Below are positions 18,325 to 33,320 of a stretch of DNA of 64,000 nt, in pieces. This DNA is from Nostoc sp. HK-01. Lineage in GTDB: Bacteria; Cyanobacteriota; Cyanobacteriia; Cyanobacteriales; Nostocaceae. The DNA is taken from positions 5,087,501-5,151,500 of the forward strand of contig AP018318.1 in the NCBI GenBank assembly GCA_003990705.1, in the 5' to 3' direction. The translations under genes and the position numbers were made by a program. Under the pieces are notes generated by a model. The model worked only from the letters and a program-made list of their open reading frames with translations. It was not told the origin of the DNA and did no database searches. How positions within the stretch are numbered: position 1 is the stretch's first letter; each line of letters begins with the position of its first letter.

Positions 18325-19893
18325 CTAATGGGCAACTGCACCGCCAGTTGCTTTCACTTTTTTAATGAATAAAATAGCAATACCGCTGACTAACAAAGCT
18401 AGACCAATAAAATAAAAACAATCGTTAAAAGCCATAACAAATGCTTCGCGGCGGACGACATTAGAAATAGATGCGATCGCCTGATTTTGAGCAGTACTTA
18501 AATCTGCACCGCGACTGATAAAATATTGTGTCATCTGGTCAATTCGCTGTTGCGTTTCTGGGTTATATAAAGATACGGCATCTCCTAATCGATTTGAGTG
18601 AAATTGCTCTCTATTAGTTAATAAGGTTGCTAAAATAGCAATTCCTAGGGAACCACCCATATTTCGCATCATATTAAATAAACCACTGGCTGAACCTGCA
18701 TCTTTGGGATTCAAACCCGCAGTTGCAATTGATGTTAGCGGAACCATAATTAATGGTTGTCCCATAGCGCGAACTAGTTGTGACCACCGCAATTGATCTA
18801 ACCCTGTTTGATTAGTTAAACCTGCATTCATAAATGCACTAATCGCAAATAAAGTAACACCTAAAGCCACCATAAACCGCACATCAATGCGTTGCATAAG
18901 TTTGGGAATAAAAGGAATAATAAATAATTGCGGAATACCCGCCCAAATTAACACTTCACCAATTTGCAGAGCATTATATTGTTGAATTTGGGCGAGATAT
19001 AAAGGCAAAATATAAATCGAGCCATATAATCCTATTCCCAGGGAGACATTAACGACACTTGCTAAAGCAAAGTTGCGATAACGTAATAAACTTAAATTAA
19101 TAAATGGTTGCTTACGAGTTAATTCAATCAAGAAAAATAACGTCAGAAAAATTGCAGCAATAATACTCAAGCGCAGAATCAATGGTGAACCAAACCAATC
19201 TTTGCGGCTACCTTCTTCTAACACTACCTGTAAGGAACCTAAGCCAATAGCCATTGAAATAATTCCCCACCAGTCACCCTGTTTTAATAACTGTATTTGG
19301 GGTTTGACTTGCTTAATTCCATACCACACACCAGCCAGCATTAATGCCCCAGGAAATACATTGATATAAAAGCTATATTCCCAACTATAATTTTCTGTTA
19401 ACCAACCGCCTAAAGTTGGGCCAATTGATGGTGCAAAAACTGCTGTAATCGCAAATGCAGCTAATCCTATTGATTGCTTTGCTGGTGGTAATGTTGTTAA
19501 AACAACCGTTAAAGATGAAGGAATTAAAACTCCGCCTGTAAAGCCTTGCAAAGCCCGGAAAACAATCATGGAATTCAAATCCCATGCCCAAGCACAGCAA
19601 ATAGAGAAGAAAATAAATAATACTGTATTAACTAGTAAATAAAGCCTGAGAGAAAAAACCCGCGATAACCATCCTGTTAAGGGAATAACGACAATTTCTG
19701 CAACCAGATAAGCAGTAGAAATCCAAGAACCTTCTTCTAAAGTTGCGCCTAAAGATGCTTGAATTTCTTGCAATGAAGCGTTAGTAATTTGGATATCTAA
19801 AACTGCCATAAAGGCACCAAGCATACTGGCTAATACACCAATCCAAGTTCTTAACGGTATGCGTTCTGGCGCTACAGCAGAAACATTAGCCAT
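18325..19893 (-). CDS. DHA2-family MFS multidrug exporter (EmrB/QacA type)
   Basis: The 522-residue transporter has about 14 hydrophobic segments. Its first segment holds the LGAFMAVLDIQITNASLQEIQ motif of the 14-TM drug:H+ antiporter family, and later GSASGLFNMMRNMGGSLGIAI, the conserved EmrB-type segment. It should pump hydrophobic compounds out, together with the EmrA-like adaptor encoded two genes upstream (21462-22922). It is the last gene of the marR-emrA-MFS-emrB series on the minus strand, after a 204-bp gap that contains repeat-like CTCTGCGCCTCCGCACCTCTGCGTG DNA. Confidence 0.93.
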   Translation of the reverse strand: MANVSAVAPERIPLRTWIGVLASMLGAFMAVLDIQITNASLQEIQASLGATLEEGSWISTAYLVAEIVVIPLTGWLSRVFSLRLYLLVNTVLFIFFSICCAWAWDLNSMIVFRALQGFTGGVLIPSSLTVVLTTLPPAKQSIGLAAFAITAVFAPSIGPTLGGWLTENYSWEYSFYINVFPGALMLAGVWYGIKQVKPQIQLLKQGDWWGIISMAIGLGSLQVVLEEGSRKDWFGSPLILRLSIIAAIFLTLFFLIELTRKQPFINLSLLRYRNFALASVVNVSLGIGLYGSIYILPLYLAQIQQYNALQIGEVLIWAGIPQLFIIPFIPKLMQRIDVRFMVALGVTLFAISAFMNAGLTNQTGLDQLRWSQLVRAMGQPLIMVPLTSIATAGLNPKDAGSASGLFNMMRNMGGSLGIAILATLLTNREQFHSNRLGDAVSLYNPETQQRIDQMTQYFISRGADLSTAQNQAIASISNVVRREAFVMAFNDCFYFIGLALLVSGIAILFIKKVKATGGAVAH

Positions 19894-20097
19894 AGTATTG
19901 CTCCAGTTTGAGGTGCGAATAAAATTGGAAGAATATTAAAAATTTACCATTGATAGTAGGTTACAGGTTAAAGGTGACAGGTTACAGAAGAGGAATATCT
20001 AGCGATAGTCTCTTAAATCTCTCTGCGCCTCCGCACCTCTGCGTGAAATAACTTCTCAAAGTCAACACAGTTAGCAATTGAAGCTTGATTGATAAAT

Positions 20098-21360
20098 CTA
20101 CTTCCTAGCTACAATACCTCTTTGTTCATAAATAGGTATCACCATTTTTCGTAAAATAGGAAGTTGTCTACTAAAAAATATTGAACCAATAATACAAGCT
20201 ATACCATCAATTATTAATGTATTAGGAGCACCAATTATATCTGCAATTCCGCCGCCGATTAAATTGCCTATAGGTATCATGCCTAAAAATGACATTGTGT
20301 ATAAGCTCATCAATCTGCCACGTTTATCTTCTTCAACAATAGTTTGCAAAAATGTATTGCTCGCGGCAATTTGTAAAATAGTTCCTAAGCCAACAAATAG
20401 CATTGTGAACAACGATAATGGTAAAAATCGAGATAATGCAAAGGCGATCAAACCACATCCTAATATTGCTGGTGCGATCGCAATTAATTTCCCAATTCCT
20501 AAAATGGTTTGGCGCGTAGCGAGATATATTCCCCCTGATAATGCTCCCACACCTGATGCAGCCATTAAAAAGCCTAAAGTTTCCGCACCACCTTTGAGAA
20601 TTGTTTCGGCAAATACTGGCACAAGAATTGTATTTTGTAACCCCATTAAACTGACTAAAGCTGATAGCAATAAAATTGCGCGAATGGGTTGAAAGTTAAA
20701 GGCATAGATAAAACCTTCTTTAACTTTTTGTAAGGGATTACCTGAATTAACCGGAATTTTCCACGGTTTAACTGTCATCGCCAGTAACCCTGCAAGCACA
20801 GCAATATAACTCAAACCATCTATTAAAAAACAGTAAGCTACACCAACTCGCGCAATTAGTAGTCCTCCCACAGCAGGGCCAATTAGTCGCGCCCCATTAA
20901 TCATAGTTGAGTTGATGGCGATCGCATTGGCTAAATCATCTTTGCGTTCTACTAATTCGGGTACGAATGCTTGTCTGGCTGGTGCATCCAAGGCGTTAAT
21001 AAATCCTTGTAATAAGCTCAAAGCAATAATATGCCAAATTTGAATCACCCCTGTTAGTGTTAAGGTAGCTAACGCTAACGATTGGATCATCGCCATAATT
21101 TGTGTACCAATCAAGGTACGATACCGCGAAAAGCGATCTACAAATACGCCGCCCAAGGGAGCGAGAAAAAAGCTAGGAATTTGACTAGCAAATCCCACAA
21201 CTCCTAACATTAATGGTGAGTTAGTTAAGTCATACACTAGCCAAACAGTAGCTAGTTGAGTCATCCATGTGCCAATTAGAGAAATGCCTTGTCCGGCAAA
21301 AAACAAACGATAGTTTTTTGATCTGAAGGCAGGTATTTGCAACTGTTTAAATATTGTCAT
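20098..21360 (-). CDS. MFS transporter, EntS/BacE-like 12-TM exporter
   Basis: The 420-residue protein shows the MFS_3 pattern: FAGQGISLIGTWMTQLATVWLVYDLT in the first segments, then PLGGVFVDRFSRYRTLIGTQ (the D-R-x-x-R cytoplasmic loop) and DAPARQAFVPELV. Relatives export siderophores or small drugs. It lies between the emrA-like and emrB-like genes, an unusual insertion of a second pump into an EmrAB pair. A heptamer repeat cluster fills the 101-bp gap to the upstream emrA-like gene. Confidence 0.9.
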   Translation of the reverse strand: MTIFKQLQIPAFRSKNYRLFFAGQGISLIGTWMTQLATVWLVYDLTNSPLMLGVVGFASQIPSFFLAPLGGVFVDRFSRYRTLIGTQIMAMIQSLALATLTLTGVIQIWHIIALSLLQGFINALDAPARQAFVPELVERKDDLANAIAINSTMINGARLIGPAVGGLLIARVGVAYCFLIDGLSYIAVLAGLLAMTVKPWKIPVNSGNPLQKVKEGFIYAFNFQPIRAILLLSALVSLMGLQNTILVPVFAETILKGGAETLGFLMAASGVGALSGGIYLATRQTILGIGKLIAIAPAILGCGLIAFALSRFLPLSLFTMLFVGLGTILQIAASNTFLQTIVEEDKRGRLMSLYTMSFLGMIPIGNLIGGGIADIIGAPNTLIIDGIACIIGSIFFSRQLPILRKMVIPIYEQRGIVARK

Positions 21361-21430
21361 TGGTCATTTGTCATTGGTCATTTGTCCTTAGTCAATGGTC
21401 AATAGCTAAGAATTGATGACTATTGACATC
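21361..21430. repeat. Dispersed heptamer-type repeat cluster
   Basis: TGGTCATTTGTCATTGGTCATTTG runs are followed by TCAATGGTCAATAG and GACTATTGAC between the emrA-like and MFS genes. It belongs to the same family as 6080-6168 and could act as an mRNA structure separating expression of the two cistrons. Confidence 0.6.
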
Positions 21431-21461
21431 CGTCGAACTCAAGTTAATTTCACACTTTACC

Positions 21462-22922
21462 TCACTTCACTTCAACAGTAACTTCCGCAGACATCCCTGG
21501 TGTAATCCGTGAGTCGTAACCTTGCATACTCTTTTGGTCTAAAACTATTTTGACGGGGATACGTTGTACAACTTTGGTAAAGTTACCTGTAGCGTTGTCT
21601 GGCGGTAACAAGGCAAATTGCGCGCCGGAAGCTGGCGAAACACTGTCAACTCTTCCGCTAAAGGTGTGATGGGGAAAAGCATCCAGTTTCACTTCTACTG
21701 GTTGTCCTGCTTTCATCCTTTCTAATTGAGTTTCTTTGAAGTTGGCTACTACCCAATTTTCGTTATCAACGATCGCCATTAATGGTGATCCCGCTTGGAT
21801 TCTATTCCCAACTTCCACGGTTTTTTTACCAACTCGTCCGCCACTAGGAGCCGTAATGTTGGTGTAGGATAACTGCAATTGGGCATCTTTTAATGATGCT
21901 TCGGCTTGGGCGATCGCTGCTTTAGCCGCTTCGTATTGACCCCGTTTCACACTAGTATCTTGACCGCCAGCTGTCGCTTGTTGCAACCCACCTCTCGATG
22001 CTGCAAGTTTGGCTTGGGCGCTGGTGACACCTTCTTGGGCTTGTGCTAGTTGAGATTGGGCTTTGGCTACTCCAACTCTGGCTGAGGCTAACCTAGCTTG
22101 GGCTTGTTGAACTCCTTGGACAGCCGCATTTTTCTGCGCTAAAGCCACATCATAAGCTGCTTTGGCTGCATCCAACTGTTGACGCGCGATCGCCCCTTCT
22201 TTATACAAGCTGTTGTAACGGTTATAATCTGTTTCCGCTTTTTGCAAATTAGCGTTGGTTTGGGCTACTTGGGCTTGGGCGGCGGGAATTCCGGCTTGGG
22301 CTTCTTGTACTGCTGCTTGGGCGGCGGGAATTCCAGCTTGGGCTTCTTGTACTGCTGCTTGGGCGGTGGAAATTGCCGCTATTGCATTACTAACATCACC
22401 TTGCGCTTGAGTTGTCTTTCCACTAGTGGTTTCAGAACTTAAGGCAATATTGGCGGCGGCGGCTTGGGCTTGGCTACGGGCATTTTCTAAGGCGGCGGCG
22501 GCCTGCTGCACTTTACTTTGATAATCGCGGGGGTCGAGTTTGACTAATAACTGTCCCGGTTGCACTTCTTGGTTATCGTTAACTAAAACTTGGGCAACTG
22601 TTCCCGGAATTTTGCTACTAACTTGGTGAACATGTCCTGTCACCGTAGCGTTGTCTGTTTCTTCGTGGGTGGAAGCAAACTGCCAATAGTTATAACCAAA
22701 TGTACCTACGGCGATCGCACCTACACCCAAACCAGCCAAAATTAAAGGCAATCGCTTTTTACTACGAGGTTTGTCTTTTTTCTCTACCTCTGGCTGTACA
22801 TCAGTTTCTGGTGCTTCTGGTGTGGCGATCGCTGTTTCTAAAGTTTCGGTATCCGTAATCATTTCTGTTTCGACAACAGCTGTTTTCTCTTTGTTGCGTC
22901 CGTTGAAAGTAGTTGTCGTCAT
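21462..22922 (-). CDS. EmrA/HlyD-type membrane fusion protein
   Basis: The 486-residue adaptor has a cytoplasmic N-terminus rich in acidic residues, one membrane segment (about 57-80, LPLILAGLGVGAIAVGTFGY), and a lipoyl-like half motif VSSKIPGTVAQVLVNDNQEVQPGQLL. A long coiled coil with Ala/Gln repeats (AQAAVQEAQAGIPAAQ twice) is followed by the second lipoyl half and barrel (LSYTNITAPSGGRVGKK). It links an inner-membrane pump to the outer membrane. AGAGGGGAACT just before the ATG is a strong ribosome site. The exact AAVQEAQAGIP duplication reflects a 42-bp DNA repeat around 22280-22370. Confidence 0.93.
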   Translation of the reverse strand: MTTTTFNGRNKEKTAVVETEMITDTETLETAIATPEAPETDVQPEVEKKDKPRSKKRLPLILAGLGVGAIAVGTFGYNYWQFASTHEETDNATVTGHVHQVSSKIPGTVAQVLVNDNQEVQPGQLLVKLDPRDYQSKVQQAAAALENARSQAQAAAANIALSSETTSGKTTQAQGDVSNAIAAISTAQAAVQEAQAGIPAAQAAVQEAQAGIPAAQAQVAQTNANLQKAETDYNRYNSLYKEGAIARQQLDAAKAAYDVALAQKNAAVQGVQQAQARLASARVGVAKAQSQLAQAQEGVTSAQAKLAASRGGLQQATAGGQDTSVKRGQYEAAKAAIAQAEASLKDAQLQLSYTNITAPSGGRVGKKTVEVGNRIQAGSPLMAIVDNENWVVANFKETQLERMKAGQPVEVKLDAFPHHTFSGRVDSVSPASGAQFALLPPDNATGNFTKVVQRIPVKIVLDQKSMQGYDSRITPGMSAEVTVEVK

Positions 22923-22990
22923 AGTTCCCCTCTTCCTTGCTCAATCATTAGAACACGTACTATTTAGTTACAAGCTGCTCTTAGTCTTTT

Positions 22991-23006
22991 ATTTAGTATG
23001 CTAAAT
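22991..23006. promoter_or_regulatory. Candidate MarR operator upstream of the emrA-like gene
   Basis: ATTTAGTATGCTAAAT is a 16-bp near-perfect palindrome (mismatch only at the two symmetric positions inside the centre), 69 bp upstream of the emrA-like ATG. The half site ATTTAGTAT recurs upstream of marR at 23558-23566, and TATTTAGTTAC occurs at 22960-22970. Shared boxes before a MarR gene and its neighbour pump fit autoregulation; this is inference. Confidence 0.5.
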
Positions 23007-23063
23007 ATTTTCTCAAATAAATTTATACATGGCTTCACCCGAATGGGCGATTGTCATCCAGCC

Positions 23064-23531
23064 TTAAGATAGGTTAGCAATTGCTCTATTTAGCAGTTGA
23101 GAAAAGAATTCACGGTCATCGGAAGAAATACCACGCATGGCATCTTCACGTAATTCTGCGGCTAGGGGAGGTAATATTTTTTCTAAGTCTTTACCAGCAT
23201 CAGTTAACCAGATGCGCCAAATGCGGCGATCATGCACATCTCGTTCTCGACGAACTAAGCCGCGTTCTTCCATTCGGTCTAGTACGCCTGTTAACGTTCC
23301 ACCCACCTGTTGTAACTTCTCACCAATACTGGATGTGGGTAAACCATCTTCTTGCCACAAACAGCACAATACCAACCAATGAAATGGTGTTAGTCCAAAA
23401 GGCTCTAGTTTTTCAGTAAACTTCCGGGTAAGCAGTTGTGAAAGCAGCTTGATTCGATAACCTAAATTGTAAGGTGCTAAAACTTGCTGCCACGACTCTA
23501 ATGCGGTAGAATTATCAGGTTTGACAACCAT
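23064..23531 (-). CDS. MarR family transcriptional regulator
   Basis: The 155-residue winged-helix protein shows the MarR core. A helical dimer arm (YRIKLLSQLLTRKFTEKL) precedes LTPFHWLVLCCLWQEDGL and the recognition helix region GGTLTGVLDRMEERGLVRRERDVHDRRIWRIWLT, where D-x-R-D-R-R forms the beta wing. The C-terminal helices complete the dimer. It is the first gene before an efflux set (emrA-like, two MFS pumps), so ligand-sensitive repression of the pumps is likely. No clear ribosome site precedes the ATG. Confidence 0.93.
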   Translation of the reverse strand: MVVKPDNSTALESWQQVLAPYNLGYRIKLLSQLLTRKFTEKLEPFGLTPFHWLVLCCLWQEDGLPTSSIGEKLQQVGGTLTGVLDRMEERGLVRRERDVHDRRIWRIWLTDAGKDLEKILPPLAAELREDAMRGISSDDREFFSQLLNRAIANLS

Positions 23532-23662: not shown

Positions 23663-24931
23663 TTAAAACCGCTGTGCTAATTGCGGAGTCCGCCCCTTTA
23701 AACCAATCATTAACTTTAAGGCAAATACCTTTAATAGGGGAACGCGCTGCATCAACCATAAACCCAAACGACGCAACATCACTAAGGGTAAGATTTGGTT
23801 AGAAAACATCCGGTCTAATAAATCGGTGAAACCTAAAATTGTCAGGTTTTCTAGTTTCCGCCAGCGTTCATAGCGTTTGAGGACTTGAATTTTGCCAATA
23901 TCTTCGCCTTTAGCATAGGCTGTTTGGATAACTTGCGCTAAAGCTGCTGCATCTCGAATACCGAGATTTAAACCTTGTCCACCAACGGGATGACAGTTGT
24001 GGGCTGCATCACCAATTAATGCCAAACGGGGGAGGACATAGCGATCGCTTTGCATGAGTTGGACTGGGAAGACGAAGCGATCGCCTAATAATTCCAATTT
24101 GCCCATTTGATCACCGTAACGGCGGCTTAATTCTGCCAAAAATTGATCATCATCCAAAGCACATAAGGCTTTTGCTTCTTCATGGGGTGCTGTCCAGACA
24201 ATGCGGCAACGGTTCCCCGGTAAAGGTAAAATCGCAAACGGGCCGCTAGGCCAAAATCTTTCGTAAGCAGTATCGTTGTGGGGTTTTTCTGGTTTGACAA
24301 AAGCAACTATACAAGATTGCCAATATTTCCAACCATGAGTTTTGATACCTGCTGCTTGGCGAATAGGCGATCGCGATCCATCCGCCGCCACTAATAACTT
24401 ACTGCGGACTGTATATATCTGTTCAAAAATCTTGATATCGATTGCCACTATATCCTGCTGATGTTGTGTATTAACTACTTCCGCCGGACATAGATAATTT
24501 ACATTAGGGCATTTCTGAACAAATTCCTGCAAAGGCTGCAACAAAGCTTGGTGTTCAGCAACGTAACCTAACTCTGGTGTGTCTTTAGCAAGATCAGCAG
24601 TTGCAAATTCCACCACATCAGGATAATCCGCATCAGAAAGCCGCACATGGCGGTATTTGGCAATTTGGGGTAATATTTTGTCCCAAACTCCAATACCTTG
24701 GTAAATCAGCGCCGAAAGCAAATGGACTGCGTAAGCTTGTCCTTTAGCCACGGATGCTGATGTCACCTTGGCTTCAATTAGCAGAATATTCAAGCCAGAG
24801 TCTTTTAAAGCAGCGGCTAGGGTTAACCCAACAATTCCACCGCCGACAATTACCAAATCATAGTCGTATCCCCGTTTGTCTGCTGCGGGTTGCTGAGGGG
24901 AAAGAGTTTGAGTAAGTTGGGTTAGCGCCAT
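23663..24931 (-). CDS. UbiH/COQ6-like FAD-dependent aromatic hydroxylase
   Basis: The 422-residue flavoprotein has the three class-A monooxygenase motifs: YDLVIVGGGIVGLTLAAAL (dinucleotide-binding, about 24-42), LLVAADGSRSPIR (DG motif) and ALIGDAAHNCHPVGGQGLNLGIRD (GD motif), the last typical of the UbiH/VisC group. Relatives hydroxylate quinone precursors in ubiquinone synthesis; in cyanobacteria the substrate is probably a plastoquinone or related ring, which is inference. It stands upstream of, and on the same strand as, marR, but a HIP1-centred palindrome separates them. Confidence 0.85.
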   Translation of the reverse strand: MALTQLTQTLSPQQPAADKRGYDYDLVIVGGGIVGLTLAAALKDSGLNILLIEAKVTSASVAKGQAYAVHLLSALIYQGIGVWDKILPQIAKYRHVRLSDADYPDVVEFATADLAKDTPELGYVAEHQALLQPLQEFVQKCPNVNYLCPAEVVNTQHQQDIVAIDIKIFEQIYTVRSKLLVAADGSRSPIRQAAGIKTHGWKYWQSCIVAFVKPEKPHNDTAYERFWPSGPFAILPLPGNRCRIVWTAPHEEAKALCALDDDQFLAELSRRYGDQMGKLELLGDRFVFPVQLMQSDRYVLPRLALIGDAAHNCHPVGGQGLNLGIRDAAALAQVIQTAYAKGEDIGKIQVLKRYERWRKLENLTILGFTDLLDRMFSNQILPLVMLRRLGLWLMQRVPLLKVFALKLMIGLKGRTPQLAQRF

Positions 24932-25301: not shown

Positions 25302-26312
25302 ATGAAACGTCTTGTTATTTGTTGTGATGGAACTTGGCAACAGTTAGCTAGTCCGTATCCAAGCAATGTGGTGAAGCTGGCTCAATCAGTGAAACCAATT
25401 GCTCAAGATGGAGTTCCCCAGATTGTTTTCTATGATGAAGGAATTGGCTCTGAGAGTCAAAAGGTTTTGGGAGGAGCTACTGGATTAGGAATCGATAGAA
25501 ATATTGAAGATGGCTATCGATTTTTGGTTCTTAACTATGTTCCTGGTGATGAAATCTATTTATTTGGTTTTAGTCGTGGTGCTTATACAGTCAGAAGTCT
25601 AGCAGGAATGATCTATTGTTCAGGTTTGCTAGACCGACCTCATATAACCAAAGCACATGAAGCTTACGAGCTTTATCGTAACCGTAATGTCAAGCCTAAA
25701 GACAAGGAAGCAGTAAACTATCGCAAGACATACGGAGAAAGAGTTCCCATCACCTTGATTGGTTGTTTTGACACCGTAGGAGCGCTGGGGATTCCTGGGT
25801 TAGCTGTCTTCAAAAAGTTTCATGACCAACTTAATCAACGCTACAGATTCCATGACACTACTTTAAACAAAGATATTCAGAATGCGATCCACGCAATGGC
25901 GATCGATGAAATCCGGGAAATCTTTGATGTAACCCCAATGAAAGCTCATCCTGAGGCGACACATCAACGAGTAATTCAAAAGTGGTTTCCTGGTGAGCAT
26001 GGTTGCGTTGGTGGTGGAACTGAAGAACACAGCGGATTATCCGATGCAGCCTTACAGTGGATGATTGATTCTGTCGGTGATTTAGGATTAGGACTGGACT
26101 TCGATACAAGTGTAATTCCCACAGGTATCAACCCCAATTATGAATGTGAGTTTAAGAACGATCCTGGATTTTTTAAATTAGCAGGAATCAAGCTGCGTGA
26201 GGTTGGCGATGCTATTGAAGACATTCATGACAGTGCAATCAACCGCCTCAAAGGTCGCAAGGACTACAGACCCAAAAATTTAAAAAGCATTATTTCCAAA
26301 TTATTGGATTAA
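25302..26312 (+). CDS. DUF2235 alpha/beta-hydrolase, candidate (phospho)lipase
   Basis: The 336-residue protein begins MKRLVICCDGTWQ, the DUF2235 opening strand, and has YLFGFSRGAYTVRSLAG with the nucleophile elbow GFSRGA (Ser91). FDTVGALG (Asp157) and WFPGEHGCVGGG (His233) complete a plausible Ser-Asp-His triad. DUF2235 includes the Tle1 phospholipase effectors of type VI secretion. No signal peptide or secretion module is present, so an intracellular lipase is more likely. It lies 74 bp upstream of a fatty-acid dioxygenase gene on the same strand, which suggests release of fatty acid for that enzyme (inference). Confidence 0.85.
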   Translation: MKRLVICCDGTWQQLASPYPSNVVKLAQSVKPIAQDGVPQIVFYDEGIGSESQKVLGGATGLGIDRNIEDGYRFLVLNYVPGDEIYLFGFSRGAYTVRSLAGMIYCSGLLDRPHITKAHEAYELYRNRNVKPKDKEAVNYRKTYGERVPITLIGCFDTVGALGIPGLAVFKKFHDQLNQRYRFHDTTLNKDIQNAIHAMAIDEIREIFDVTPMKAHPEATHQRVIQKWFPGEHGCVGGGTEEHSGLSDAALQWMIDSVGDLGLGLDFDTSVIPTGINPNYECEFKNDPGFFKLAGIKLREVGDAIEDIHDSAINRLKGRKDYRPKNLKSIISKLLD

Positions 26313-26386
26313 TTCCAGATTAGGAAATTTTTTGGCGATCGCTCAAAATCAAAAATTCAAGTTCAAGCAATACATAGGTAATCATT

Positions 26387-28024
26387 ATGGCTGCTCAAAG
26401 AGACACATCTAGAGACGGTTTAAACAACAAAATTCAAACATTAGTTTTAACTAATTTTAAAGGGCTTTGGCAATTACTTCAAAGCAACGAATCTATCAAA
26501 CGTAAAGTTAACAAAGCATTACTAAATAGTCTCATCTACAAAATTCCTACTCGTCCTAATCCCTACAGTATGATGACACTAGATAAGCATATTCCTGATA
26601 CAGATAAGGAGAAGAAAACAGATACTTATACTTCCTGGGACTCACTCAACGATCGCACTTATACCGGAAGACATTTACCACCCAATCCCAAGTTAAACGA
26701 CCCAAATAATCTACCAAAGGTTGAAGACCTAGCAATTTTATTCCGCAAAAGAGACGGGAAAACAATTTACTCTAGCAAATCAACAATGCTGTTTCCCTAT
26801 TGGGTGCAGTGGTTTACTGATAGTTTCCTCCGTCTCGACCACACTAATAAATTAAAAAATACATCCAATCATGAAATTGATTTGTGTAATGTTTATGGTT
26901 TAACTAGAAAACAAACACATCTTTTACGCAGCTTTAAAGGTGGTAAATTTAAAACTCAAAAACTCAAACGGCAAGATGGTGTAGAAGAAGAATATCCTCT
27001 ATTTTATTATGCTGATCCAGCACAGGGCATAGTTGACCCGCAATTTGTCGGTCTTTATGAACCCGTCAATGATGAAAAAAGACAGCCAGCAGATAAAAAA
27101 CAATATCTGTTTGCAATGGGGGTAGAACGCGCCAATGTGCAAATTGGCTATGTCATGCTCAATACTCTCTGTCTGCGGGAACATAATCGTTTATGTGATG
27201 TATTAGCCAGTAATTATCCCGATTGGGATGATGAACGCCTCTTCCAAACTTCGAGAAATATTCTTATGGCAATTATTCTCAAAATAATTATGGAAGAGTA
27301 CATTAACCATATAACTCCTTATCACTTTAAACTATTTGCTGATCCTGAAGCTTTTACAAAAGAAAGTTGGTATCGTACCAATCATATGTCAATTGAATTT
27401 GACTTTGTTTATCGCTGGCATAGTGCGATTCCTGAAACATTTACTTGTAACGGCAAACCCACTCATGTTGCTACAACTCTCTGGAATAATAAAATATTAA
27501 TTGACCAAGGGTTAGGAGCGTTAATGGAAGAAACTTGTTCTCAACCAGGAACAAGAATTGGTTTATTTAACACGCCTGATATATTAGTTGAATTAGCTGA
27601 ATTACCTTCAATCAGACTGGGACGGGAACTGCAATTAGCCAGCTACAACGATTATCGAGAATTGTGTGGTTTCCCCAGAGTTAACAGCTTTGATCAAATT
27701 ACTGGTGATGAATTTACTCAACAGAAACTAAAAGAATTCTATGGTCATGTTGATAATATTGAGTTCTTTGTAGGACTCTACTCTGAAGATGTGCGCCAAA
27801 ATTCAACCATCCCGCCTTTAGTAGCGCGTTTAATTGGGATTGATGCCTTTTCTCAAGCACTAACTAATCCTTTGTTATCACCTAAAATCTTTAATAAAGA
27901 TACTCTTTCGCCTATAGGCTGGGAAATATATCAAACTACAAATACCGTCTCAGATTTAGTTAATCGCAACGTTCCGTCATCAGGCAAAAAGTACAAAGTT
28001 ACTTTTGATTTACATAAAGAATAG
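26387..28024 (+). CDS. COX-like heme fatty acid dioxygenase (probable linoleate 10S-dioxygenase type)
   Basis: The 545-residue protein aligns throughout with the catalytic domain of animal cyclooxygenases: LREHNRLCDVL (263-273), LFQTSRNILM, YHFKLFADPE and EFDFVYRWHSAIPETF. Tyr342 matches the catalytic Tyr385 of COX and His345 the proximal heme ligand His388. It lacks the EGF and membrane-binding modules. At the distal heme position the COX pattern Q-H-F-T-H reads Q141-W-F-T-D145, so the distal His is Asp. A Nostoc punctiforme homologue with the same neighbour is known as a linoleate 10S-dioxygenase, making the 10S-hydroperoxide. Confidence 0.88.
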   Translation: MAAQRDTSRDGLNNKIQTLVLTNFKGLWQLLQSNESIKRKVNKALLNSLIYKIPTRPNPYSMMTLDKHIPDTDKEKKTDTYTSWDSLNDRTYTGRHLPPNPKLNDPNNLPKVEDLAILFRKRDGKTIYSSKSTMLFPYWVQWFTDSFLRLDHTNKLKNTSNHEIDLCNVYGLTRKQTHLLRSFKGGKFKTQKLKRQDGVEEEYPLFYYADPAQGIVDPQFVGLYEPVNDEKRQPADKKQYLFAMGVERANVQIGYVMLNTLCLREHNRLCDVLASNYPDWDDERLFQTSRNILMAIILKIIMEEYINHITPYHFKLFADPEAFTKESWYRTNHMSIEFDFVYRWHSAIPETFTCNGKPTHVATTLWNNKILIDQGLGALMEETCSQPGTRIGLFNTPDILVELAELPSIRLGRELQLASYNDYRELCGFPRVNSFDQITGDEFTQQKLKEFYGHVDNIEFFVGLYSEDVRQNSTIPPLVARLIGIDAFSQALTNPLLSPKIFNKDTLSPIGWEIYQTTNTVSDLVNRNVPSSGKKYKVTFDLHKE

Positions 28025-28054
28025 CTGATTTTAGTTTGATTGATCAGGACAAAA

Positions 28055-28087
28055 ATATCCCCAACTTCTTTGAGAATTTGGGGATAT
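28055..28087. terminator. Hairpin between dioxygenase and lyase genes
   Basis: ATATCCCCAA (28055-28064) and TTGGGGATAT (28078-28087) form a 10-bp perfect stem with a 13-base loop, 30 bp after the dioxygenase stop and 50 bp before the next start. It has no long T tract directly after it (AAAGGTTAAAAAATATC follows), so it may be an attenuator or mRNA-stability element rather than a full stop. Confidence 0.55.
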
Positions 28088-28136
28088 AAAGGTTAAAAAA
28101 TATCTCACCATAATTATTCTATCTATCTGTTGAACA

Positions 28137-29330
28137 ATGAACCTATTTACAGAATATCCAGAACAAGACGAAGCAAAATATTGCGCTCTCATGAGTGAGC
28201 TAGTCAGAAAGAACATGGATAATCTTTATGGAGGTGAAAAGCAAAAAATTGCCAAGCGAGATACTCACTCTAAAACTCACGCTGCTGTTCAAGGTACTTT
28301 AGAAATTTTTGACTTTGATGAAGCCGCAATTAAACAAGAATTGCGTCAACGCACTTCCTTAACTGAAGCTCAAATTCAAGGAATTTCACTGAAACAAGGT
28401 TTATTTGCCAAAGCAAAACAATATCCTGTTTGGTTACGATTTGCTAGTGGTGCATTCTCCGTAAAAAATGATTATGAAGGTGATACACGCTCTATGGCGG
28501 TGAAAATCCTTGGGGTAGAAGGAGAAAGATTACCACAAAGTCATGAGTTAAAAACCCACGATATTATTGTCCACAATACAGAACTCTTTTTTGTCAGAAC
28601 TATTAAAGACTTCTACGGCTTTTTTTTGGCGATTTATCGAGCAGGTTTGTTTCCACTTTTTAAGCTGTTGGTGCTGTTATGGCTCAAGTTACATCCCTAC
28701 GAATCCAATCTTTTACAAACTAGTTTCAAACGTTTTCCTAAAAGTTTACTCACCGAACGCTATTGGAGTGCTTCAGCCTATGCAGTGGGACTCAAATCTG
28801 ATTTTGACCCATCCCAACCAGGTCGAGTTCCGGTGGAATATCCTGCTGTGATTAAATATGGGTTTACTCCCGTGTCCATTCAGGCACCTCATCAACCACT
28901 TCCTCTAGAGTCCAGACCAGAAACTGAACTTCAGAGTGTCAAAACTTCAGGTGCAGAGGACAACTACTACCGAGAAGATATTATTCAAGCTTTAGCCAAG
29001 CCTGATGCTGAATACGCTTGGGATTTTCAAATCCAATTTCAAACTAAACCAGAGATGTCGGTTGATGATTCCACCATTCCTTGGAATGAAGCAGAATCAC
29101 CCTTTTTGACAATTGGTCGTCTGACAGTTAAGCATCAGAAAGTTGACTCTCCCTTAGAAAGTGACTTTGGAGAAAATCTCAGTTTTTCTCCAGGGAATGG
29201 TCTAGCAGTACATCGTCCTGTCGGTGCGATTAATCGGTTACGCTACACTGTGTATTCCATTGTTGCTCAGTCTCGTCATAGTAAACGAGGAGTCAAATAT
29301 CAAGAACCAACTGTGGAGACAAAATATTAA
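28137..29330 (+). CDS. Catalase-related heme protein, probable fatty-acid hydroperoxide lyase
   Basis: The 397-residue protein is a small catalase-fold member. TKTHAAVQGTLEIFD-like sequence puts a Thr-His pair (Thr47-His48) at the distal heme side as in coral allene oxide synthase and related lyases. YPVWLRFASGAFSVKNDYEGDTRSMAVKILGV matches the catalase core, and R369-x3-Y373 is the proximal heme-tyrosine motif. True catalases are longer and carry V-H at the distal site. In Nostoc punctiforme the equivalent gene next to the dioxygenase cleaves the 10S-hydroperoxide into a C10 oxo-acid and C8 alcohols; assigning that activity here is by homology. Confidence 0.87.
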   Translation: MNLFTEYPEQDEAKYCALMSELVRKNMDNLYGGEKQKIAKRDTHSKTHAAVQGTLEIFDFDEAAIKQELRQRTSLTEAQIQGISLKQGLFAKAKQYPVWLRFASGAFSVKNDYEGDTRSMAVKILGVEGERLPQSHELKTHDIIVHNTELFFVRTIKDFYGFFLAIYRAGLFPLFKLLVLLWLKLHPYESNLLQTSFKRFPKSLLTERYWSASAYAVGLKSDFDPSQPGRVPVEYPAVIKYGFTPVSIQAPHQPLPLESRPETELQSVKTSGAEDNYYREDIIQALAKPDAEYAWDFQIQFQTKPEMSVDDSTIPWNEAESPFLTIGRLTVKHQKVDSPLESDFGENLSFSPGNGLAVHRPVGAINRLRYTVYSIVAQSRHSKRGVKYQEPTVETKY

Positions 29331-32873: not shown

Positions 32874-33320
32874 TTACCACATAGATGTATGTATTGATAA
32901 TTCCTCGTGGAGAACTGCGCCGCAAGCTATACCTGTCAATGAAAATAAGGATGTAATCAAGAAGGCCGACCTGCCTTTAAATCCTGCTGTATGAAAATCA
33001 ATTTTTGCTAATATTGCCGCAGAAATAATTAATAACGTATCGAGAAAGAGTCGAAACCAAGCAACCATTAGGAAAAACAAAAATGCCCCGCATACGGCAA
33101 TTAAAAAAGTTCTAGTACTTGACTCAAAAAATACACTAGAATAATTAGCCATCGCTAAAAAGGGAACAGCTAAACTTGCTAACAAAATCAATACACCAAG
33201 TACCACTACTATCCAGAGAGGCCAAGGCATACGTGATTCAGATAACACCCAGCCTAGGGTAGTATAACTAACCAGTACTAGTAATAAGGATGTCCAAGGA
33301 AGTCTTTTGAAAATTGACAT
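32874..33320 (-). CDS. Hypothetical integral membrane protein
   Basis: The 148-residue protein has about four hydrophobic helices (near 8-27, 33-60, 70-105 and 118-138), with a short basic N-terminus (MSIFKRLPW) predicting a cytoplasmic start. I recognise no catalytic motif or named family. It is conserved-looking in composition and probably belongs to a cyanobacterial group of unknown function. It converges with the rplU-rpmA operon. Confidence 0.7.
   Translation of the reverse strand: MSIFKRLPWTSLLLVLVSYTTLGWVLSESRMPWPLWIVVVLGVLILLASLAVPFLAMANYSSVFFESSTRTFLIAVCGAFLFFLMVAWFRLFLDTLLIISAAILAKIDFHTAGFKGRSAFLITSLFSLTGIACGAVLHEELSIHTSMW

Follow-up and report, generated by a model that had tools for sequence, protein, structure and literature searches.

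A 64,000-nucleotide stretch of Nostoc sp. HK-01 (NCBI GenBank assembly GCA_003990705.1, contig AP018318.1, positions 5,087,501 to 5,151,500 of the forward strand), referred to here as the window, carries three consecutive genes for a DUF2235 hydrolase, a cyclooxygenase (COX)-like haem dioxygenase (DOX) and a catalase-related haem protein (CAT). These genes form a real, conserved and modular oxylipin gene set, in which the enzyme pair was already known and the DUF2235 module is the new part. The genes, their residues, their conserved linkage, the exchange of partners and the fused reading frames are all directly observed. We consider it probable that the set encodes a three-step oxylipin pathway, with one clade of DUF2235 proteins acting as a dedicated fatty-acid supply module. 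The coordinates, the shared plus strand and the gaps of 74 and 112 bp given in the first-pass annotation of the window were all reproduced, and the residues that it named are in place: Ser91, Asp157 and His233 in the first protein, Tyr342 and His345 in the second, and Thr47-His48 and R369-x3-Y373 in the third. All three genes are under purifying selection, with ratios of nonsynonymous to synonymous substitution (dN/dS) of 0.06-0.17 in 12 comparisons involving four relatives. The features of the locus are as follows:

25302-26312, plus strand: open reading frame (ORF) of the DUF2235 / Tle1-like alpha/beta hydrolase, 336 amino acids, with Ser91-Asp157-His233; proposed acyl hydrolase
26313-26386, plus strand: DUF2235-DOX gap of 74 bp, matched by a coding linker in six relatives that have the two genes fused
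26387-28024, plus strand: ORF of the COX-like haem dioxygenase (DOX), 545 amino acids; probable linoleate/oleate 10S-dioxygenase
28025-28136, plus strand: DOX-CAT gap of 112 bp, with a strong stem-loop at 28055-28087
28137-29330, plus strand: ORF of the catalase-related haem protein (CAT), 397 amino acids; probable 10S-hydroperoxide lyase

The neighbourhood of DUF2235 was read in two sets of records, whose counts were kept separate and never summed. The named set holds the best 80 of 485 relatives that a DUF2235 alignment picked out of GTDB genomes. The second set holds 386 cyanobacterial genomes (G labels), in which a close lyase orthologue is one matched at E < 1e-140 and from which 17 genomes with a best DUF2235 match of at most 58% identity were left out of the reading of neighbours. 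At least six records are common to both sets (L099/G376, L115/G300, L108/G203, L111/G336, L125/G019 and L133/G360). Of these genomes, 16 have DOX, 34 have DUF2235 relatives and 12 have a close lyase orthologue, and DUF2235 lies directly before DOX in 11 of the 12 lyase genomes. Conservation of DUF2235 beside the pair was the check that the first-pass annotation had proposed, and the answer is strongly positive, with six named records even carrying the two genes fused. The 16 DUF2235 genes found here at 72% identity or more all adjoin an oxygenase or precede one by a few genes (11 DOX and five of the lipoxygenase, or LOX, family).

The named loci give a similar picture. At or above 60.5% identity, 47 of 53 are followed within 7 kb by a same-strand oxygenase gene (39 DOX, eight LOX), against two of 27 below that identity. 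A maximum-likelihood tree of the window and the 80 named loci places the window in one DUF2235 clade of 51 rows (support 100/100). In 48 of these rows, a same-strand gene for a fatty-acid oxygenase comes downstream within that distance: 34 are followed by a separate DOX gene, six are fused to DOX (making 40 with DOX) and eight are followed by LOX. The remaining three (L110, L120 and L129) are without an oxygenase, and the L129 sequence stops 35 bp past its DUF2235 gene. Outside the clade, two of 30 rows adjoin DOX (Oscillatoria L141 and L142), which may mean that a more distant DUF2235 was recruited independently, and six of the 30 have less than 2 kb of downstream sequence, so that a partner could hide there. 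Four context labels placed on the tree require 10 changes against a mean of 35.9 for shuffled labels, and none of 200 shuffles was as low. Among the named loci of the clade, DOX occurs at 39 and is accompanied by the lyase at 36, the exceptions being L102, L123 (both genes broken) and L132 (where the contig ends). Linking the 48 DUF2235-DOX loci through any flanking gene in common gives 11 groups, and requiring two such genes gives 21, the latter a count that short contigs inflate. Since one of the 11 groups is L132, whose 3.7-kb contig leaves almost no flanking sequence, about ten flanking contexts is a fair count for the cassette.

The oxygenase behind DUF2235 is exchangeable. The five DUF2235 genes of at least 72% identity without DOX in the 386 genomes all precede a LOX-family gene on the same strand, and four of the five also have a P450; one LOX and two P450s at these loci were named by Pfam and the rest by blastp cluster. 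References for LOX and P450 were drawn from DUF2235 neighbours found earlier, so these are post hoc classes, for which the low-identity loci serve as control. On the DUF2235 tree, the LOX label requires three changes, with at least two forced by well-supported branches, and a P450 is also present at five of the eight LOX loci of the named clade (L088, L122, L124, L125 and L148). Two LOX loci are placed among DOX-associated relatives: Nostoc sp. CHAB 5844 (L088), where genes for an NTF2-like protein, a P450 and a lipoxygenase, in that order, come after a 90%-identical DUF2235, and Tolypothrix FACHB-123 (L092), where a lipoxygenase comes after an 84%-identical DUF2235. The L088 lipoxygenase takes the place of DOX next to a DUF2235 of the same clade and is related over its full length (1063 bits) to PDB 5ek8, an entry titled Lipoxygenase that we take to be a Cyanothece enzyme; it is a non-haem iron enzyme with P450 partner(s), and the window cluster has no such enzyme. 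In Okeania (L117), a different lipoxygenase lies 1.3 kb downstream, followed by a catalase-related gene just below the Pfam cut-off. Lipoxygenases at least 64% identical to that of L070 occur in six genomes and are preceded by DUF2235 in five of them, the query genome counted, with none in G072. The dioxygenase has been exchanged as well: G167 and G376 share the same chromosomal place, with DUF2235 and lyase 83-86% identical to those of the window, but the dioxygenases of the two fall in separate clades (56% and 87%).

Three further observations concern the LOX loci. The NTF2-like protein that precedes the P450 in the LOX gene run of L088 (8120-10221) belongs to DUF6841. In L070 (8651-10378), as well as in L072 and L073, one ORF of 575-579 amino acids may join the NTF2-like and P450 parts, judging from its length and from a P450 match in the C-terminal part of the L070 protein. 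The window's own genome carries a lipoxygenase relative with 41% identity to that of L070 (G000:C1:195564-197411, L174), at another place on the chromosome and away from DUF2235.

Fused reading frames commonly point to enzymes that act in succession or interact. DUF2235 and DOX share one ORF of 902-944 amino acids at six named loci, namely a metagenome-assembled genome (MAG, L104), Tychonema (L108), Lyngbya CCAP 1446/10 (L111), Microcoleus vaginatus HSN003 (L113) and Microcoleus L132 and L134, the last of which starts at a contig end, without the DUF2235 N-terminus. The linker is fast-evolving, roughly 45-60 residues long, and still ends in the ancestral DOX N-terminus; L132 has lost the ATG at the junction, and the other five loci keep a Met there, from which internal initiation is possible. 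Fused rows account for two changes on the DOX tree and three on the DUF2235 tree, and the DOX tree, with its minimum of two changes, is most simply read as recording two separate fusions. In L104, L108 and L111, the lyase ATG lies 23 bp past the stop of the fused gene. A candidate 16-bp overlap of the two genes at these loci was dropped, as it rested on a TTG start and the ATG that fits the family begins after the stop. AlphaFold2 left the DOX half of the fused protein unfolded (mean predicted local distance difference test, pLDDT, 48.5; predicted template modelling score, pTM, 0.42), and because of this we make no statement on contact or channelling. Successive enzymes are also joined in the fungal DOX-P450 fusions described in excerpts of PMC13049297, but here the partner is a hydrolase upstream of the oxygenase, and the hosts are bacteria.

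The second and third proteins resemble a pair studied in N. punctiforme, whose DOX and lyase genes (Npun_R5469 and Npun_R5468) adjoin as they do in the window. The window DOX matches the animal haem peroxidase family PF03098 at 171.1 bits (cut-off 25), and among proteins of solved structure its best matches are cyclooxygenases (COX-2 at E 6e-62 by phmmer). Residue conservation was counted over rows gathered at E 1e-30 and 75% coverage, the window row included; two DUF2235 and three DOX pieces were omitted as too short, and some genomes are present twice. The catalytic Tyr342 and proximal His345 (YRWH) are kept in 55 of 55 rows, and Asp145 replaces the distal His of COX in the same 55. We rejected Asp145 as a novelty, as it already lies within the published motif F143-tds-F (excerpts of PMC13049297). 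In the same excerpts, Npun_R5469 (UniProt B2J5P4) forms 10S-hydroperoxides from oleate and linoleate, and its YRWH, F143-TDS-F147, Tyr305, Thr310, Ile483, Ala487 and Gln490 are identical in the window, with Val in place of the published G469. By homology to this enzyme, the window DOX is a probable linoleate/oleate 10S-dioxygenase.

The catalase match of the third protein is weak (PF00199, 27.0 bits against a cut-off of 25), and no solved sequence relative was found at E 0.001. Its T47-H48, N147, R369 and Y373 fit the Thr-His, Asn and Arg-x3-Tyr pattern of catalase-related fatty acid hydroperoxide enzymes, in which we take Thr-His to sit at the distal haem, Asn to be distal and Arg-x3-Tyr to be proximal. 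N147, R369 and Y373 are present in 50 of 50 rows, Thr47 in 41 (eight Ser, one Ala) and His48 in 44 (six Asn). The six Asn rows (L131, L083, L091, L093, L106 and L107) are all 80-86% identical to the window CAT, and one of them is the N. punctiforme NIES-2108 orthologue (L131), with Thr-Asn where the window has Thr-His. Npun_R5468 is described as converting linoleate 10S-hydroperoxide to 1-octen-3-ol (excerpts of PMC13049297, PMC9579011 and PMC6307994), and a review mentions a cyanobacterial catalase-haem dioxygenase fusion protein (PMC11719350). The window CAT is likewise a probable 10S-hydroperoxide lyase by homology. In a 2014 study of the N. punctiforme pair, the lyase reportedly also yields a C10 oxo-acid.

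The first protein matches PF09994 (DUF2235), which now carries the Pfam name T6SS_Tle1-like_cat, at 274.6 bits against a cut-off of 27, with residues 2-256 covering profile positions 1-286 of 287. It is the one PF09994 match in the window's genome, and Nostoc sp. LEGE 06077 has its closest relative (100% identity) among the named loci, the best 80 of 485. The GxSxG serine and the rest of the triad are conserved, with S91 in 95 of 95 rows, D157 in 94 and H233 in 95. For its AlphaFold2 model (pLDDT 89.4), Foldseek ranks Tle1-type chains highest, together with a functionally uncharacterised Legionella protein, and the template modelling scores (TM-scores) are 0.40-0.52. Like Tle1 and its relatives (PDB 6sjl and 6ski; TleB, 9j3f), the window protein has an alpha/beta hydrolase catalytic domain with Ser-Asp-His. 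Also among the Tle1-type relatives is PDB 4o5p, whose title says uncharacterized and which is presumably Tle1 itself. The window protein differs in size (336 amino acids versus about 520-780 for the Tle1 relatives); as a single Pfam domain over residues 2-256, it leaves domains D2-D4 of the Tle1 effector unmatched, and it occurs in metabolic gene runs without a recognised secretion or immunity gene, unlike the Tle1 of type VI secretion systems (T6SS). Tle1 is described as a phospholipase, with the membrane-anchoring domains D2-D4 beside its catalytic domain (excerpts of PMC13133936). The match of DUF2235 to Tle1-type hydrolases, in triad and in part in fold, agrees with a role in substrate release.

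In this organism, we infer every enzymatic step. DUF2235, as a Tle1-type serine alpha/beta hydrolase, would free a C18 unsaturated fatty acid from membrane glycerolipid; the COX-like dioxygenase would form the 10S-hydroperoxide, as its N. punctiforme homologue does; and the catalase-related protein, again by homology, would cleave the hydroperoxide into C8 alcohols such as 1-octen-3-ol and a C10 oxo-acid. The DUF2235 supply module would pair either with DOX and the catalase-related lyase or with a lipoxygenase, often together with a P450, and would sometimes be fused to DOX. We place DUF2235 before the oxygenase because the COX-like and LOX sets differ in their oxygenase and peroxide enzyme and share the free unsaturated fatty acid. 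That members of this DUF2235 clade stand before lipoxygenase genes too is a further point for substrate release, which appears to be the best reading of DUF2235. The proposal of the first-pass annotation that the first gene supplies the fatty acid is in part borne out: conserved linkage, the LOX partnership and the fusions speak for it, and the hydrolase activity itself is putative. In the mammalian cPLA2-COX cascade, a lipase likewise stands upstream of COX, and both systems would run from a lipase through a COX-family oxygenase to a haem enzyme acting on the peroxide. A broader reading is a real possibility that we hold tentatively: the Tle1-like clade may be a general substrate-release module of cyanobacterial oxylipin synthesis, exchangeable between COX and LOX partners, and the Microcoleus, Tychonema and Lyngbya fusions may be bifunctional lipase-dioxygenases with direct handover from membrane to oxygenase.

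The same free fatty acid could come from the biosynthetic pool if DUF2235 were a thioesterase hydrolysing acyl-acyl carrier protein or acyl-coenzyme A. The alpha/beta hydrolase fold is generic enough for this, and TesA thioesterases are among the Foldseek matches that follow the six best chains, but the Tle1-type matches rank far higher (E to 2.8e-10 versus 2.7e-4) and the studied family member, Tle1, is described as a phospholipase (excerpts of PMC13133936). We judge a thioesterase unlikely. We give no better prospects to a downstream role, in which DUF2235 would remove oxidised acyl chains from membrane lipids or hydrolyse an ester or lactone of the product. Some lipoxygenases and dioxygenases may act on esterified lipid, DUF2235 occurs in gene runs with both kinds of enzyme, and gene data cannot order the steps. 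A product-specific hydrolase, however, should not be common to sets whose second-step enzymes differ (catalase-related or P450), and the published 10S-DOX oxidised oleate and linoleate (excerpts of PMC13049297).

The name of the Pfam family, that of a T6SS effector domain, raises a further explanation, namely that DUF2235 is a polymorphic toxin, a T6SS effector or some other unrelated hydrolase that lies beside the known pair by chance. A 2012 survey, in its excerpted text, does count DUF2235 among lipid-acting toxins, cyanobacteria included (PMC3482391). Yet none of the 14 searched window neighbours is a T6SS or toxin-system component: no VgrG, adaptor or immunity gene was found among the four upstream neighbours searched with NCBIfam and the ten further neighbours searched with Pfam, some small ORFs being unsearched, and one of the ten (32874-33320) gave no match. 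Linkage in about ten flanking contexts, six fused loci and the LOX partnership make chance adjacency very unlikely. We rejected the toxin or T6SS reading as contradicted by the neighbourhood data, and find this explanation as a whole highly improbable.

Several observations weigh against DUF2235 as a dedicated fatty-acid supply module. The fold match to Tle1 is partial (TM-score at most 0.52), and the protein is without Tle1's membrane-anchoring modules. In the fused Microcoleus L132 and L134, the DUF2235 part has a dN/dS of 0.97 and 0.83 against L113, and DOX only 0.15 and 0.21. The twelfth lyase genome (G360) has a DOX-lyase pair without DUF2235, its one DUF2235 being on another contig; the record that overlaps it, L133 (Moorena), is outside the partner clade. 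No oxygenase lies near the DUF2235 genes of clade members L110 and L120, and four of the 16 DOX genomes have neither DUF2235 nor lyase alongside DOX. The DOX genes of G005 and G197 have no adjoining DUF2235, lyase or recognised lipase in the parts examined. Among plasmid DOX relatives (12 records, of which eight were opened and seven annotated), two Acaryochloris genes (56% identity) show neither lipase nor lyase, and five alphaproteobacterial genes (31-40% identity) have no recognised lipase neighbour; the latter lie beside catalase-family genes in Paracoccus yeei (L189) and Methylobacterium currus (L193), P450 genes in Rhizobium (L190) and Sinorhizobium (L191) and neither in Ruegeria. Some cassettes look broken, with incomplete DUF2235 and DOX frames in L123, a split DUF2235 in L145 and, in L086 (8361-11345; G099), a DOX split by a DDE transposase gene into two pieces that are otherwise alignable. 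The DOX-CAT gap is long at some of the 33 named loci where it was measured (median 180 bp, range 20-648).

In two of those four genomes, the gene run of the DUF2235-less DOX includes a patatin-like phospholipase, which would fit an unrelated second lipase taking the role of DUF2235. At L067 (7711-15284) and L069 (5315-12297), DUF2235-less DOX is accompanied by DUF4331, cation efflux, GMC oxidoreductase and patatin-like phospholipase genes, in differing orders. The oxygenase-less clade DUF2235 of Nostoc sp. CCCryo 231-06 (L120, 4476-6437) comes after a ricin-type lectin and an amine-oxidase-like protein, and the Paracoccus plasmid DOX relative has a RoxA-like cytochrome c gene upstream.

If DUF2235 does supply the fatty acid, the gene set would be a bacterial equivalent of the phospholipase-cyclooxygenase cascade, complete with a fusion of a hydrolase with a COX-like enzyme. 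We met no assigned enzyme that releases the free unsaturated fatty acid for bacterial COX- or LOX-type pathways in what was not a systematic review, and a conserved, fusible hydrolase gene makes this release step directly testable in laboratory Nostoc. Such a gene also suggests a metabolic role for one clade of DUF2235, a family known more for its toxins and T6SS effectors. Our literature search found no paper uniting DUF2235, hydrolase and cyclooxygenase, nor one joining DUF2235 and lipoxygenase, with subscription literature mostly out of reach, the 2014 primary paper on the pair included. Excerpts of the literature on the N. punctiforme pair do not mention DUF2235, a mention of the upstream gene in the 2014 primary paper being still possible, and the co-mention of DUF2235 and cyanobacteria in PMC3482391 stands in text that, as excerpted, is about toxins. 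The conserved, exchangeable and fusible hydrolase module has no description in the literature reached by our searches.

The DUF2235-DOX gap has a median of 80 bp (26-278) at 34 unfused named loci, and co-transcription of these two genes is likely; that of the third gene with them is plausible. A simple scan found no promoter- or terminator-like site in either gap, but it says little, since it returned fewer promoter-like sites than shuffles did (5 versus 13.3) and no promoter-like site before the first gene. The stem-loop at 28055-28087 has a z-score of -4.2 for its 55-base core and -1.4 for the whole DOX-CAT gap, and five close relatives have a stem of 15 pairs there, G-U pairs included, both arms of which have changed in sequence. 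Because the genome holds 28 occurrences of a C-G rich form of the stem, we rejected the stem-loop as a specific attenuator and treat it as a dispersed palindrome.

Upstream of the cassette and divergent from it in Nostoc lies a gene for a UbiH-family flavin adenine dinucleotide (FAD) hydroxylase (23663-24931 in the window; PRK07364 equivalog). A UbiH-family gene is downstream and convergent in Tychonema and Lyngbya (L108 and L111) and in the MAG L104, and the proteins are 58% identical between lineages. The window also carries, at 18325-23531, a MarR-family regulator with weak similarity to OhrR, followed by an EmrA-like adaptor and two MFS transporters. The regulator sits close to genes that would make organic hydroperoxides.

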